DNA of 43,843 bases from Candidatus Campbelliibacteriota bacterium (GTDB taxonomy: Bacteria; Patescibacteriota; Minisyncoccia; Phycocordibacterales; GCA-2747955), in assembly GCA_947311625.1 (NCBI GenBank), contig CAMZKW010000005.1, forward strand, positions 1-43,843, given 5' to 3'. Numbering within the stretch: the stretch's first letter is position 1; the number at the start of each line of letters is the position of its first letter. The notes under the pieces were generated by a model, which saw nothing but the letters and a program-made list of their open reading frames with translations, was not told the DNA's origin and ran no database searches. Shown here piece by piece: positions 4,248 through 13,536 of this stretch. Position numbers and translations under genes: made by a program.

Positions 4248-4700
4248 ATGAAAAATAGAGAAATAATTGAAAAACTTTTGGAAGTTAAAAATATTTTGAA
4301 TGAAGCAGGAAGGAAGGAAATATTTTTTGAGTTTGGTTTAACGGTGGCGAATTATGAAATTTTAAAAATAATTGAAAAGGGAGAAGTAAAAACAATTACA
4401 GATTTAAAAAATATTTTTTCTGAAAGTTTAGCTTCCTTAACTCAAAAAACTCAAAAATTAGAAGAATTGAAATATTTAAAAAAAGAGAAGGATGAAAATG
4501 ATCCTAGAAAAAATATTTTAATAATTACAAAAAAAGGAATTGATTCTTTAAGAAGAGTTGAAAAAAAAATTGATTTAGTTTCTTCTTTTATTTTAAAAAA
4601 ATTTTCCCAAAAAGAAAAAGAAAATTTTTATGAAATTTTAGATTTTTTATCAATTAAATTAAAAAATAGAATAAATAAAAAAATAGTATGAAAAAATTAA
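4248..4700 (+). CDS. MarR-family transcriptional regulator
   Basis: wHTH: VANYEILKIIEKGEVKTITDLKNIFSESLASLTQKTQKLEELKYLKKEKDENDPRKNILIITKKG; reads through TGA 4689 to TAA 4698. Confidence 0.8.
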
Positions 4701-6247
4701 AAAAAAATAAAAAGATAATTTTGGGTTTTTTGCTGTTAATTATATTTTTAGTAGGTAAAAATATCTATCAAAAATATCAAGAAGCAAATCCTAATTGAAA
4801 ATATAAAAAAATTCAAATTGAAAATAAAGAATTGAAAAAAACTATTTCTGTAGATGGTGAAGTGGTAGCTGATTATGAATTAAATTTAGCATCTGAAATA
4901 CCTGGTATTATATCTAAAGTTTATATTAAAGAAGGTGATTATGTAAAAAAAGGTCAGTTATTGATAAAATTAAAAGATAGCGATTATAGAAATCAAGTTA
5001 GTTCTGCCTATGTAAATCAAAAAATAAATGAAGTTGCTTATGAGAAAACAAAAAAACCAAATCAAAATTTAGATTTAGATATTAAGTCTATTGATGATGG
5101 TAAAAAAACAATTTTAGAAAATATTCAAAAAGTAAGTTCAGATATTAAAAGTCAAATAAATTTACTAGAAACAGATTTATCTCAATGATTAAGATTGGAA
5201 ATAGATGATTATTTTGATCATACTGAATTTGATGATGGTATATATAATCCAACTTTTACCTATAGAATAAAGTCACAAATAGAGATATCTCGTTTAGAAG
5301 AAGAAAGAAAAGAATTAAGTAGTAAATATGAAAATTATAAAAAATCTAATAAAAATATAGATGATACTCTAGATGTTTTGAGAGATTTTGAAAAAATGTT
5401 TTCAGATTTATATTCTAATTCACAGGATTTTCTTGGTTTTAATGAAAAAGAATTAGAACAAAAAGAAAAGCATTTATCAGTTTTAAGAAATATAGTTATT
5501 CAAAAGAGAAATAATTTAATATCTCTAAAAACTACATTATCTAATTTAAAAAATAATTTAGATAATAATAAAACTTCTAAAGAAAAAATTAAAAATATTG
5601 TAAACCCCATTGACTTAAAGTTGGCCAACGAGAGAATAAGGGCTGCAAGAGTTCAGACACATTCAGCATATACTCAATTACAAAAGACTTATATTAGGGC
5701 AACAAAGTCAGGAGTTGTAGCAAATATTTATAAAAAAGAAGGTGAATATGCGGGACCATCACAAGCATTAATAAAAATTTATTCAAAAAATAAATATTTT
5801 ACAGCAGATATTCCAGAAGTTGATTTAGGGAAAATAAAAAAAGAAATGGATGTAAATATTAAATTAGATGCTTTTAAGAATAAAATTTTAAAAGGAAAAA
5901 TAGATTTTATTTATCCAGAAAAAAAAGAAGTTTTCGGCATAAATTATTATGAGGCAAAAATTATTTTTGATAAAAGAGTTTTAAAAGAAAATAATATATT
6001 TACTGGTATGTCGGGAGAAGTAATTATTCCCTATGAAATTAAAAAAGTAGAGTTTTCTTTGAATCGTGATATTGTAAAAAAAGATAGTGATAAGTATTTT
6101 GTTTGAATTTTAAATCCAGAAAAAAAAGGAAGTTTTGATGATAAATTTATAAAGAAATATTTTGAAGTCGGATTTATTGGAGATAATTTTATAGAGATAA
6201 AAGATGATTTAAATAAGTTTGATATATTAAATATTTCAAAAAAATAA
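4688..6247 (+). CDS. HlyD/MFP-type periplasmic adaptor (efflux)
   Basis: N-term TM; biotinyl-lipoyl-like VDGEVVADYELNLASEIPGIISKVYIKEGDYVKKGQLLIKL; rejoined across TGA codons. Confidence 0.85.
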
Positions 6248-6251
6248 TAAA

Positions 6252-7571
6252 ATGAAGAAAAAAAATAGAAAAAAGAATAAGTTAAAAATAAGTAGCAAGG
6301 TAGAAAGTTTGAGAAGTGAAATTTCTACTTCTAAAAAAACAAAAAACAAGAAAAATTTTTTTGTAGATTTTAAACTAGCTTTTTTCTTAACTTGAAAATC
6401 AATCCAGAGAGGGAATAAATCATCTCTTATTTTAGTAATAGGTATAATGATGGTTGTATTTTTAAACTTACTTTTTACAGATGCTATTTTTGCTGGTATC
6501 ACAAAGGGTATGAATGATAATAAAATAAATTATCAATATGGAGAAATTATAATTGAGCCTGGAGCTGGAGAAAATTTTATTAAAAATACAAGAGAAATAA
6601 TAAATAATTATAAAGATGAAAGTGGGGTGGAAAATATAGATTATTCTTTAAAAACAGGGGTTAATTTTATAAACAGAAAAAATAAAGATGGAAGAGACTC
6701 TAAAAAAATACCTGGAATTTTAATGGCTTGGAATAAAAATGATAAGTCAGTTTTTGATTTTAAATCAAATTTAGTTGCAGGGAGATTTTTAAAAGATGAT
6801 GATTTTGGAAAGATTGTTTTAGGTTCAAATTTATCTGGTGGATTTGGGGAGTCGGTTTTTCCAGATGATTTAGAAATAAAATTAGGTGAAAAAGTTTTAG
6901 TTAATTTTGGGGGAAAAAATGAAAGAGAATTTCAAATAGTTGGAGTCTATAAAACAAAAAACTTTGATATCGATAGAAGGGCTATTATTTTACATAAAGA
7001 TTTAAAAAGAGTTTTAGGTGTTAATTCTGAAGCTAGTGAAATTATTTTTCGTTTAGATAAAAGAGGTGATTCAAAAAAAATTTTAAAAAGTTTAAAAGTT
7101 AAATACCCTAAATTAAAAATTTATGATTGAGAGGAAAAAATTTCATTTGGCGCATCCATTGGAAAATCTTTTGAAGCCATCGGAATGATTTTAAAGGTAA
7201 TAGGTTCTTTGGTGGCTGGTTTAGTTATATTTATAATAATCTTTGTTAACGTTGTTAACAATAGAAGACAAGTTGGGGTCTTAAGAGCTATGGGTATTAA
7301 ACAGAAAGTATTAGTTGCCTCCTATGTATTTCTCGGGGTATTTTATATATTAATGGGTATAATTTTTGGTTATTTTTTGATGGAGTATGTAATCATAGAA
7401 ATGTTTAAAGTACATCCTATAAAAATGCCAATGGCTGATGTTGCACCATTTTTATCTCAAAGATCATTTATTTCAGCTATATTTCTATTTTCTATTTTTG
7501 CATTAATTGGTTCTATTGTTCCAGCTTATAATCAAATAAAAAAGAAAATTTTAGATTTGCTTTATCGATAA
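6252..7571 (+). CDS. MacB/FtsX-type ABC transporter permease
   Basis: N-term TM, large extracytoplasmic domain, C-term NNRRQVGVLRAMGIKQKVLVASYVFLGV; rejoined across TGA. Confidence 0.85.
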
Positions 7572-7600
7572 CATTTTTAAAAAAATGTTATAATATTTTT

Positions 7601-8179
7601 ATGATTAATAAAGAAAAAGCATTTACTCTTATAGAATTATTAGTAGTAATAGCAATAATAGGTATTCTTGCTGGAATATTATTTGTATCAATAAATCCCT
7701 CAGATCAAGTTAATAAAGCTAAATCAGCAAAGGTTGTAAGGGATATGAAGGCTATAAAGGATGCTGTTGCTTTTTATGTTTTAGATACAGGTGAATTTCC
7801 ACCAGTCTGTCGTTTGAACTGTACTAAAGATACAGATCCTCTTCTAACTAATGTGAATGGTAATAGTGGATGATCTGGTCCATATATCCAAGATGGTATT
7901 TGGAATAGAAAACACCCGTGAGGTGGACATATGGGTTTATTTTTATATGATTCAAATAATAATGGTAAAACTGAGGTTTGATTAATTTTGGATGATGATG
8001 CTCCAGGAACAGATGCTAATGATAATTCAGGCCTAGTACCTATAAAATACCTTAAGATGATTGATAAAAGTATTGATGATAATAATTTAAACTCAGGGTC
8101 TTTCTTTCTAGGAAATTCAGCACCATTTGCTTCAGGCGAAGGAGCCTGAAGAGTTTATAGAATTGGTGAACAAAATTAA
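7601..8179 (+). CDS. Type IV pilin-like protein / pseudopilin
   Basis: KAFTLIELLVVIAIIGILAGILFVSINP prepilin signature; rejoined across TGA to TAA 8177. Confidence 0.9.
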
Positions 8180-8243
8180 AAATAATGTAATTTTGTAAAT
8201 AAAATCTATAATGTTTTTTAGATATTTTATTATTATGTTATAA

Positions 8244-8256
8244 TTAAGTAACTTAA
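8244..8256. promoter_or_regulatory. Palindromic operator TTAAGTAACTTAA (putative MarR box)
   Basis: Same palindrome and same 5-nt distance to ATG as at 4230-4242. Confidence 0.75.
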
Positions 8257-8261
8257 TTATT

Positions 8262-8960
8262 ATGAAAAAAGAAAGTGAAAAAATAGAATATATTTTAGAG
8301 GTTGAAAATTTACATAAAACTTACAATCCAGACTCTATCAGTCCAGTTCTTGCACTAAAAGGTATTAATATAAAATTTGAAAAAGGTGAGTTTGTGGCAT
8401 TGATGGGTAGGTCAGGCTCTGGTAAATCTACTTTTTTACACCAAGTTGCTTTGTTGGATACACCCACAAAAGGAAATATTATTTTTGATGGAAAAAATAT
8501 ATCAGACCTTGATGATGAAGAAAAAAATAAATTTCGTTTAGACTCCATTGGTTATATTTTTCAAGATTATGCTCTTTTACCAGAATTAAATCTTTTTGAA
8601 AATATATCTTTACCTATGATGGCTAAAGGTGTTGAAGAAGAGGAATATAAAAAAGATGTTTTAGATGTGATTAAAAAAGTTGGATTAGAGGGGTTAGAAA
8701 ATAATTTACCCAGTGAATTATCCGGTGGACAGCAACAAAGGGTTTCCATCGCACGTGCCATTGTAAACAAACCAAAAATACTTTTTGCTGATGAGCCAAC
8801 GGCAAATCTAGATTCTGAATCTTCTAAATCTGTTTTGGACACAATGCGTTCTTTAGTTAAAGATTATGGTCAAACTGTTATTATGGTGACTCATGAACAA
8901 GAGGATGATGATATTGTTGATAGGACAATTTGATTAAAGGATGGAGTAATTGAAAATTAA
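8262..8960 (+). CDS. ABC transporter ATP-binding protein (LolD/MacB type)
   Basis: Walker A GRSGSGKST, signature LSGGQQQR, Walker B ILFADEPT; ends RTI[W]LKDGVIEN. Confidence 0.95.
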
Positions 8961-8999: not shown

Positions 9000-9452
9000 C
9001 TATTTTTTAACATTATTATCTATATAAACTTTATGATATTTTTGAAAATTATGTTCTGTTTTTTTTTTAATTTGATAAAAATATAAAGTCGAACCTAAAA
9101 TTATTGAAATTAAAAGAGAAGATAAAATTATTTTGTAATTTTCATATTTAAAACCATTTTTAGTTTTTTTAAAAGTTCAAAGGGAAATAAATATGAAAAT
9201 AATAAAAGTAATTCCTCAAATTAAAAATAAATTATTCAAAATCAATGATGATTGAACTTTGATTTCATGCATTTTTCCAAATTTGTCAGTGATGTCTTTT
9301 AAAAAATAATTAAATGCAAGAGTGGAGAAAATTGTTGTTAATATAAAACTTAATCAAAGAGAAAAATTTTCTATTAAATAAAGCCATTTTGATTCTTGTT
9401 TTATTTCTCCTTTTTCTATTTTTTCTATTATATTTTTATTGAAATTATTCAT
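9000..9452 (-). CDS. Two-TM membrane protein, possible anti-sigma factor
   Basis: ATG overlaps the sigma stop by 8 nt; MNNFNKNIIEKIEKGEIKQESKWLYLIENFSL[W]LSF...; several UGA=Trp. Confidence 0.65.
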
Positions 9453-10035
9453 AATTTTTTTTATTTAAATTTATATATTCTTCTTTTAATTTTTTTTTCG
9501 CTCTGGAAATTAAAGTTCCCACAGACGAAATTGGAATTTTTAATATCTCTGAAATTTCTTCATAAGATTTTTCTTCTTCAAATCTTAAAATAAAAATTTC
9601 TTTATATTTTAGCGGAAGTTTGAAAAATAATTTTTTTAACAGCTCTTGATTTTCAATTTTTTCCATCTCATCTTTAATTTCATTTTTTCAGAATTTTGAT
9701 TCTACAAAAAATAAATTATCTTCAACTGATATATCATTTTCTCGTTTTTTATTTTTTCTTCAATAGTCTATCATTTTATTATGAGTAATTTGGTAAATTC
9801 AAGAAGAAAACTTTTGTCCTTTTTTGAAATAATAATATTTTTGATATATGGTGATAAAAACATCTTGTAAAATATCTTCTCTTTCATCTTTTGAAAAATT
9901 AGAAATTTTTCTTAAAAAATCATCAAGACGTTTTTTATATCTATTTATTATTATTTCTAAAAAATAATAATCTTCTTTAATTTTTAAAAAAACTTTTTCG
10001 TCACTTATTTTTTTTGTTGTATTTTTTAATAACAT
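9445..10035 (-). CDS. ECF-type RNA polymerase sigma factor
   Basis: Region 2 DEREDILQDVFITIYQKYYYFKKGQKFSS[W]IYQITHNKMIDY[W]RK; region 4 LPLKYKEIFILRFEEEKSYEEISEILKIPISSVGTLISRAKKKL. Confidence 0.92.
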
Positions 10036-10048
10036 ATATATATAATTA

Positions 10049-10076
10049 TATACGAAAAATATTAAATTTTATTTCA
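10049..10076 (-). promoter_or_regulatory. ECF-type promoter TGAAAT-N16-CGTATA driving the sigma gene
   Basis: Reverse complement: TGAAAT (10076-10071), 16-nt spacer, CGTATA (10054-10049). Confidence 0.75.
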
Positions 10077-10086
10077 TTCTATAAAA

Positions 10087-10114
10087 TGAAATAAATTATT
10101 TTTATATTCGTATA
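10087..10114 (+). promoter_or_regulatory. ECF-type promoter TGAAAT-N16-CGTATA driving the DUF2202 gene
   Basis: TGAAAT 10087-10092, 16-nt spacer, CGTATA 10109-10114; mirror of the opposite-strand copy. Confidence 0.75.
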
Positions 10115-10155
10115 TTAAGATGAAGGGGAATTATTAAAAATAAAAATATAAAAAT

Positions 10156-11166
10156 ATGAAAAAAGATATATTAATTTTAGGGGCAGGAATTTTATTATTA
10201 GCAAATTCAACAATGGCTTTTGGAGGAGATGGCCAAGGAAGTGGTCATGGAAATGGGGGTGGTTGTCGTGGTGATGTTACTTGTATGCAAGAAAGACAAG
10301 ATCAAAATAAAAATAATAGAGAGTTTAAATCTCAAAGAGGTAATCATGAAATAAAAAACGGTTACGAAGAAGAGGAGGAGGGAGAAAGACATAGTTATAA
10401 AAAAGAAAATCAGTCAAATGATGTAGATGATGACCATGCAAAAAAAGAAGCTAAATGTATGCAAGAGATGGATGATATTAAAAATGGAGAAAAATATGGC
10501 TTAAGCAAAAATGAAAAAGAATATATTTCGTATATGAGAGAAGAGGAAAAAATTGCTCGTGATGTATATTTAACTTTATATAAAAAATGAGGTTTAAAAA
10601 CATTTAATAATATTGCTACAAAATCAGAGCAAAGACATATGGATATGGTAAAAGTATTAATTGATAAGTATGGACTAGAGGATTCAACGGTTGATAATAC
10701 AGTAGGAGTTTTTAAAACAAAAGAATTTCAAGATTTATATGATGATTTAGTAGTAAAAGGTTCAAAATCATTAGCGGACGCTATTAAAGTTGGTTTAACA
10801 ATCGAAGATTTAGATATTTATGATTTAGATAGATATTTATCAGAAACAAAAAATCCAGATGTTAAAAATATATTTCAAAAATTAAACAAAGGTTCTTTTA
10901 ATCACGCACAAGCTTTTAAGAGACAATTGGATAGAAATGGTGGAACTTATGAACCACAGTTTGTTTCAGTAGAAAGGTGAGAAGAAATTCTTAATATGCC
11001 AAAAGGTGATGATGGAAAACCTAGCCATGGAAAAGAGGTGGATCGTGAATATGAATCAGGTGATAATATGAAAGATGAGGGGCATGAAAGACAGGAAAGA
11101 AATAAAAGACAGGAAGGGAAAGGATTTTTTGAAAAAGTTTGAAATTTTCTTTTTGGATGAATATAA
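10156..11166 (+). CDS. Secreted DUF2202-like (ferritin-like fold) protein
   Basis: Signal peptide; EKEYISYMREEEKIARDVYLTLYKK[W]GLKTFNNIATKSEQRHMDMVKVLIDKYGL; charged tail; rejoined across TGAs. Confidence 0.85.
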
Positions 11167-11370: not shown

Positions 11371-13536
11371 ATGAATAGAGAATATCCACTTAATAGAGTG
11401 AGAAATTTTGGTATTGTTGCTCACGTTGATGCAGGAAAAACTACCACAACGGAGAGAATTTTGTTTTACACAGGAGTTTCTCATAAAATTGGTGAGGTGC
11501 ATGATGGTGCAGCAACTATGGACTGAATGGAGCAAGAACAAGAAAGAGGGATTACAATTACCTCTGCTGCTACAACAGCTTTCTGAAATCCTTTATATGC
11601 AAAAGGTGATGCATCACAAAAAGTAAGATTTAATATTATTGATACACCGGGTCACGTTGATTTTACAGCTGAGGTGGAAAGATCATTGAAAGTTCTTGAT
11701 GGTGCTGTTGTTGTTTTTGATGGTAATGCAGGGGTTCAACCACAATCAGAGACAGTATGAAAACAAGCTAATAAATATGGAGTTCCAAGAATGTGTTTTA
11801 TCAATAAATTAGATAAAATTGGAGCTGATTTTGATTATGCTTTTTCTACAATTACAGCAAGACTTACAAAAAATGCTGTCATGGCTCAATTACCAATTGG
11901 AGTTGAAGGTGATTTTAACGGAGTTGTTGATTTACTAGAGAAAAAAGCTTACACTTTTGAAGGTGAAATGGGTATGGATGTTAAAGAGATTGAAATACCT
12001 GCTGAAATGGCCGATAGAGTTGAAGAAAAAAGACAAGAATTTATTGAAAAAATTGTTGAAAATAATGAAGAATTAATGGATAAAGTATTAGGTGGTGAAG
12101 AAGTTGCCGTTGAAGACTTGCATAAAGAATTAAGAAGAGCGGTTATTGCCAATGAAATTGTTCCAGTTTTTGCTGGTTCAGCATTTAAAAATGTTGGTGT
12201 TCAATTAATGCTGGATGCTGTGGTTAGATATTTACCATCTCCAATAGATATTCCTCCTGTAACTGGAAATACTCCAGATATGGATGATGAACTTATTAGA
12301 GAGGCTTCCGATGAAGCACCATTATCATCTCTTGTGTTTAAAATTGCAACTGACCCATTTGTTGGACAAATTGCTTATGTGAGAATTTATTCTGGAAAAT
12401 TAGAAGCAGGTTCTTATGTTCTTAATTCAACTACTGGTAAAAAAGAAAGAATTGGTAGGTTATTGAGAATGCACGCAAACGAAAGAGAAGAAATTACAGT
12501 TGGATATGCTGGAGAAATTGTTGCTGTAGTTGGATTGAAAGATTCAAAAACATCAGATACTCTTTGTGCTTTAGATGCTCCAATTGAATTACATAGAATC
12601 ATATTCCCAGAGCCAGTTATTTCATTAAAGATTGAACCAGAATCAAAAGCTGATCAGGAAAAAATGGGTATGGCTATTAAAAAATTAGCTGATGAAGATC
12701 CTACTTTTACAGTTAATACAGATGAGGAATCTGGAGAAACTATTATTTCAGGAATGGGTGAATTACACTTAGATATTCTTGTGGATAGAATGAAGAGAGA
12801 ATTTAATGTTAATGCTAAAGTTGGACAACCACAAGTTTCATATAGAGAAACTATTACTGGTGAAGCAGAAGGTGAAGAAAAATATGCTAAACAATCAGGT
12901 GGTAGAGGACAATACGGTCATGTTAAATTAAGAGTTAAACCATTTGAAAAAACAGAATCTGAAATGAAATCAGATGAAGAAGATGGTTTGGCGAAAAATG
13001 TTTATAGAGAAGAAGGTTTTGAATTTATAAATAATATTAAAGGGGGAGTTATTCCTCAAGAGTTTATTACACCTACAAGAAAAGGTATAAAAGAAGGGAT
13101 GGACAGGGGTATTCTCGCAGGATACCCATTGGTTAATGTTTCCGTTGATTTATACGATGGTTCTTACCATGATGTTGATTCATCTGAACTTTCATTCAAA
13201 ATTGCTGGTTCAAAAGCCCTTTCAGACGCTGCTAGAAAAGCAAATCCAAAGATTTTAGAACCTATTATGAAAGTTGAAGTTGTAACCCCCGAAGAATTCG
13301 TTGGAGATGTAACTGGAAATATTTCATCAAAGAGAGGAACTATTTTAGGAATTGATGAAAGAGATATGGATCAAGTTGTTAATGCTCTTGTGCCACTTTC
13401 AGAATTATTTGGTTATGTAACTACTGTTAGATCAATGACTCAAGGTAGAGCTACTCCAAATATGGAATTCCATTCATATGGAATTGTTCCACAAAATGTT
13501 GCCGATGAGATTATAAAGAAAAGAACAGGAAATTAA
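11371..13536 (+). CDS. fusA: Elongation factor G
   Basis: [26 protein letters not shown][W][19 protein letters not shown][W]; QSETV[W][19 protein letters not shown]. Confidence 0.98.

Follow-up and report, generated by a model that had tools for sequence, protein, structure and literature searches.

The window, by which we mean the whole 43,843 nt stretch of DNA analysed, carries an ECF sigma factor gene on the minus strand (9445-10035). The product is 196 amino acids long when TGA is read as tryptophan. Profile searches identified Pfam domains Sigma70_r2 (residues 30-97) and r4_2 (residues 139-183), and a match to NCBIfam TIGR02937 (E=1.3e-22). The searches used the glycine reading of TGA; the match was unchanged. 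As in other ECF (group IV) factors, regions 2 and 4 are the only ones present, region 3 is absent and the linker is short. The sigma gene overlaps, at its 3' end, the start of a second minus strand gene (9000-9452). This encodes a 150 amino acid membrane protein that, from the positions of its homologues and a structural model, is a candidate anti-sigma factor. On the plus strand, the gene at 10156-11166 codes for a 336 amino acid DUF2202 protein, identified by profile and fold searches. It has an apparent signal peptide and a ferritin-like four-helix domain (residues 118-280).

Profile matches place MarR-like, HlyD, FtsX and ABC ATPase genes, with a prepilin gene among them, at 4248-8960 on the plus strand. 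The HlyD, FtsX and ABC-ATPase genes (E=6e-8, 1e-25 and 5e-75) adjoin the module both here and in G466, a genome of another family. Because these are common families, any link to the sigma factor is suggestive at most. The type IV prepilin-like gene (FTLIELLVVIAIIGILAG; window 7601-8179) sits between the permease and ATPase of the set.

A tryptophan reading of TGA

The EF-G gene of the window (11371-13536) contains three TGA codons. All three align with tryptophan in solved EF-G proteins, in the contexts MDWMEQEQ, TAFW and ETVWKQ. Similarly, all 37 sigma homologues have tryptophan at the position of TGA79 in the sigma gene. A tRNA with anticodon UCA, A1-U72 and G73 is encoded ~200 bp from tRNA-Trp(CCA) (G000:C1:62661-63014). 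By these alignments, TGA is read as tryptophan in the genome of the window, so that the sigma, membrane-protein and DUF2202 genes are all intact. The glycine reading (code 25) was rejected, since the EF-G codons and sigma TGA79 fall on conserved tryptophans. Within the same genus, the EF-G gene of G517 has two TGA codons; no TGA occurs in that of G329 or in any other complete EF-G gene of the family. Given this distribution, the reassignment seems to have arisen recently and in only part of one genus. We found no report of UGA as tryptophan in Patescibacteria in the open-access literature.

Predicted ECF-type promoters between the sigma and DUF2202 genes

The intergenic region (10036-10155, 120 bp) holds two divergent copies of TGAAAT-N16-CGTATA. 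The leftward copy (10049-10076, minus strand) was assigned to the sigma/membrane-protein operon by sequence and genome search. It comprises a −35 element TGAAAT (10076-10071), a 16 nt spacer (10070-10055) and a −10 element CGTATA (10054-10049). The rightward copy (10087-10114, plus strand), assigned to the DUF2202 gene on the same grounds and by a site in G466, comprises TGAAAT (10087-10092), a 16 nt spacer (10093-10108) and CGTATA (10109-10114). Both −35 elements are inside an inverted repeat (10068-10095) with arms TTTATTTCAT (10068-10077) and ATGAAATAAA (10086-10095). An earlier note on this DNA had described two outward motif copies between the oppositely oriented genes, with −35 elements in the repeat arms and spacers of exactly 16 nt; the coordinates, read directly, bear out each point.

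The −35 hexamers are separated by 10 bp and their centres by 16 bp, or ~1.5 helix turns. The two sigma region 4 contacts would be expected to face roughly opposite sides of the helix. The earlier note suggested that −35 elements this close may limit simultaneous binding by RNA polymerase. The sequence TATAAT (10050-10045) overlaps the −10 element of the leftward promoter, and TATATT (10111-10116) overlaps the rightward CGTATA. The ATG of the sigma gene is 13 nt past CGTATA (window 10035-10050); that of the C13 sigma paralogue is 6 nt past a TATAAT (L063 near 2841). These positions suggest that both transcripts may be leaderless, or nearly so.

The genome searched consists of 624 kb in 22 contigs and is 92.6% complete. 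Its small size and the genes it contains would suit a candidate-phyla-type bacterium. A genome-wide motif search, as the earlier note had proposed, recovered two exact copies of TGAAAT-N16-CGTATA, namely the mirrored pair at 10036-10155 alone. The reversed pattern, used as a control, had no genome matches at zero mismatches. With up to two mismatches, the genome contained 96 matches to the motif and 100 to the reversed control; being as frequent as the control, such near-matches carry no information. TGAAA-N17/18-CGTAWT variants were also sought in this genome and none further was found. Hence, a wider regulon was rejected, neither pattern having given extra sites. With only two exact matches, the predicted regulon comprises about two transcription units.

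Base composition would yield ~0.43 exact sites over both strands of the whole genome, and ~4e-6 divergent pairs within 60 bp. When the intergenic region was simulated 200,000 times with a Markov model, a single site appeared in a fraction of 4.5e-5 and a pair in none. The site was picked by eye in AT-rich DNA. Hence, recurrence in relatives is stronger evidence than these chance figures.

The motif recurs upstream of homologous sigma genes

We took 37 distinct homologues of the sigma factor, drawn from the order and class, and examined the 110 bp before the start of each gene. The motif TGAAA-N17/18-CGTA was present, in the sense orientation, upstream of nine. In 2000 Markov sets, the mean was 0.04 and the maximum 2. 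The single antisense match was the DUF2202 promoter of the window. The nine genes belong to genomes of several families, and the form that recurs, TGAAA[T/A/G]-N16/17-CGTA, is that of an ECF (group IV) promoter. The remaining 28 homologues have no exact site in the 110 bp; at some of them this is because the promoter is placed ahead of a preceding gene, G466 being an example.

The best sigma homologue (48% identity) is found in G498, a genome of the same genus. Here, the sole exact TGAAAT-N16-CGTATA of the genome sits 35 bp upstream of the gene. The spacer sequence differs from that in the window, and there is a further TATAAT downstream of the ECF site. Six aligned sites yield the extended −35 consensus TGAAATAAA. 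The arm of the inverted repeat is this same extended −35, which is found singly elsewhere.

Two sigma paralogues (52% and 42% identity), with the same type of membrane partner, are encoded in the genome of the window. The ECF motif is absent upstream of both genes, which lie in C13 and C22 and have promoters of TATAAT type. A genome_contigs search for relatives of the sigma factor gave one remote match only.

Predicted targets in related genomes

The cluster in G466 has the order secreted protein, sigma factor, membrane protein, DUF2202. A TGAAAT-N16-CGTATT site is located 85 bp upstream of the first gene of this sigma operon cluster. A separate TGAAAG-N16-CGTAAT site is 45 bp upstream of DUF2202, within the 3' end of the membrane-protein gene. 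In G498, TGAAAT-N16-CGTAAT occurs 54 bp upstream of a small secreted-protein gene that adjoins the sigma operon; the product (YxGDPNVQGPNYSPERH...) is homologous to that of G466. In these two genomes, all but one of the other CGTAWT matches fall within coding sequence; the exception is at the end of a short contig in G498. Across genomes, the predicted targets are the sigma operon, the small secreted protein and DUF2202.

The small secreted protein family (YRGDPNVQGPNYSPERHTAM...; L121:1320-1748, L116:4207-4617 and L118:11133-11522) has no Pfam match. Its members adjoin ECF genes in G498, G466 and G228; an ECF-type promoter sequence accompanies them in G498 and G466. A search of the genome of the window gave no match to the G498 protein. 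Of the 397 genomes of the order, only 11 contain a match to the DUF2202 protein of the window. A sigma gene linked to DUF2202, together with matching sites, is evident in two genomes: that of the window and G466.

The earlier note had proposed that the sigma factor autoregulates and activates the gene for the secreted DUF2202 protein, and that absence of the motif from orthologous intergenic regions would speak against this. Its presence before 9 of 37 homologues (0.04 expected), including that of G498, supports autoregulation of the sigma factor from a putative promoter of its own. Likewise, the matching G466 sites before the operon and before DUF2202 lend comparative support to the predicted activation of the DUF2202 gene by the ECF sigma factor.

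The mirrored arrangement is local

Pairs of outward TGAAA-N-CGTA sites with 0-30 bp between them were sought in 397 genomes of the order. The pattern was present in four, and only in the window is the pair flanked by an ECF gene and a target. In the 396 other genomes, no mirrored pair was found beside an ECF gene. The three other matches are in or across unrelated reading frames, and the mirror was rejected as a conserved element. In G498 and G466 the TGAAAT sites are single, with no inverted partner. The palindrome is best seen as two copies of the putative extended −35 placed back to back by happenstance in the genome of the window. By this survey, the mirror is a local arrangement and no conserved device.

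A candidate anti-sigma factor

Homologues of the membrane protein follow 32 of 37 related sigma genes. In the window the gene is adjacent to, co-oriented with and overlapping the sigma gene, the position that marks anti-sigma factors (ASDI, II, III). The family has the N-terminal consensus ILxKIKxxxIKPxxKWxF, and the model (pLDDT 84) shows three long helices preceded by a short one at the N terminus. There was no recognisable anti-sigma domain, with no Pfam or NCBIfam family above cut-off, and a fold search with the model against the PDB gave no match. Position and conservation argue for the role, and we regard the protein and its homologues as a candidate new anti-sigma family. It would work like an anti-sigma factor; membership of ASDI, II or III is not claimed.

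The DUF2202 protein

The DUF2202 protein matches PF09968 over residues 120-280 (E=3e-54; 183.6 bits, cut-off 22). The domain aligns with MJ0754 (3q4n) over residues 112-281 (E=2.5e-49), and the predicted structure also matches MJ0754 (Foldseek 2e-14). Subsequent Foldseek matches are mostly ferritin-like, with weak E-values (0.007-0.2), and include aldehyde-deformylating oxygenase, Dps-like, bacterioferritin and Mn catalase structures. The ferritin metal-site pattern is E plus ExxH, twice. Invariant residues E129-E131, E158xxH161, E217 and H250 fit, with SxxH in place of the second ExxH. The Methanocaldococcus jannaschii protein MJ0754 (PDB 3q4n, 3q4r) shares the DUF2202 domain and four-helix fold. 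Unlike MJ0754, the protein of the window has long low-complexity flanks and would appear to be secreted or anchored in a membrane. We found no description of a counterpart regulatory setting for MJ0754 in the open-access literature, and nothing relevant there on DUF2202, MJ0754 and ECF systems of Patescibacteria.

The genome of the window encodes a second DUF2202 protein (L065:2880-3917; G000:C2), which carries a fused cytochrome b5-like domain (PF00173, E=1.3e-15). The fusion hints at a redox role for the DUF2202 family. The ferritin-like fold of DUF2202 suggests a response to envelope redox or metal stress; that such stress is the inducing signal is our guess.

Discussion

Very probably, the region 10036-10155 contains two divergent promoters recognised by the adjoining ECF sigma factor, with its own operon and DUF2202 as the output. 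The membrane-bound partner (9452-9000) would release the sigma factor upon a signal. The ECF holoenzyme would then transcribe leftward, into its own sigma/membrane-protein operon, creating positive feedback, and rightward, into the gene for the secreted ferritin-like DUF2202 protein. Transcription presumably starts from both TGAAAT-N16-CGTATA sites, and the mirrored promoters may interfere with each other. By the sequence features tested, the system would work like, and probably is, an autoregulated ECF system. More tentatively, and with some doubt, it may be a minimal stress module. Such a module would pair the ECF sigma factor with a new three-helix anti-sigma family and have a regulon consisting of itself and one secreted ferritin-like protein, with competition between the mirrored holoenzymes coupling feedback to output.

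The intergenic DNA can be read in other ways. The inverted repeat could serve as the operator of a dimeric regulator, either a repressor or an activator, such as the MarR-like protein of the window, the CGTATA sequences being incidental or part of housekeeping promoters. The palindrome arms are 10 bp long, a MarR-like gene (4248-4700) is nearby and the region is AT-rich with TATAAT-like hexamers. However, the single TGAAAT sites of G498 and G466 have CGTA at the same distance, and the arm extension TAAA matches the extended −35 of single sites. Furthermore, the MarR-like protein of G466 has no detectable homology to that of the window. We consider an operator very unlikely. It is also very unlikely that both sites are real promoters read mainly by the housekeeping sigma factor, with the ECF pattern inherited or secondary. 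Across families, TGAAA and the CG of CGTA are kept at fixed spacing, for which a housekeeping promoter has no need, and a consensus scan found no sigma-70 site at either position. This holds even though TATAAT-type hexamers overlap CGTATA on both strands, G498 has its extra TATAAT downstream of the ECF site and the C13 and C22 paralogue genes carry promoters of this type. Given the TATAAT over the leftward −10, the sigma gene might in addition be transcribed from a housekeeping promoter.

Coincidence in AT-rich DNA would be compatible with the ~0.43 exact sites expected genome-wide, and with mismatched copies being no commoner than the reversed control. Conversely, the expectation for a divergent pair within 60 bp is ~4e-6, and the motif recurs at homologous genes. 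Chance, which this comparison refutes, is thus exceedingly improbable.

Reading the sites as divergent ECF promoters yields a target promoter, derived from sequence, for a sigma family found across a group of reduced-genome bacteria. It also puts a name to the probable anti-sigma partner of that family, a membrane-protein family, and connects DUF2202, which has received little study, with an envelope-stress-type regulator in two bacterial families. As a compact natural case, the mirrored pair would suit study of interference between identical divergent ECF promoters.

The SigW promoter of Bacillus subtilis is TGAAAC-N16-CGTA. Like SigW-RsiW of B. subtilis and RpoE-RseA of E. coli, the window system has a sigma factor with regions 2 and 4 only, an operon shared with a membrane-protein gene, and a TGAAA-N-CGT promoter common to the sigma gene and a target. 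Unlike in those systems, the −35 element ends with T, A or G and not C (TGAAAT versus TGAAAC), and divergent mirrored promoters serve a predicted regulon of two units. The partner also differs from RsiW and RseA; it has an N-terminal segment of ~20 residues, three membrane helices and no Pfam anti-sigma domain. Hallmarks of ECF systems are an AAC-type −35, a CGT −10, σ2 and σ4 domains only, a co-transcribed anti-sigma factor and autoregulation (PMC8103513). In place of the classical AAC (PMC8103513), the sigma family of the window has AAT, AAA or AAG. New here are the family of sigma partners, DUF2202 as a predicted target and the mirrored layout; the parts themselves are of known kind.
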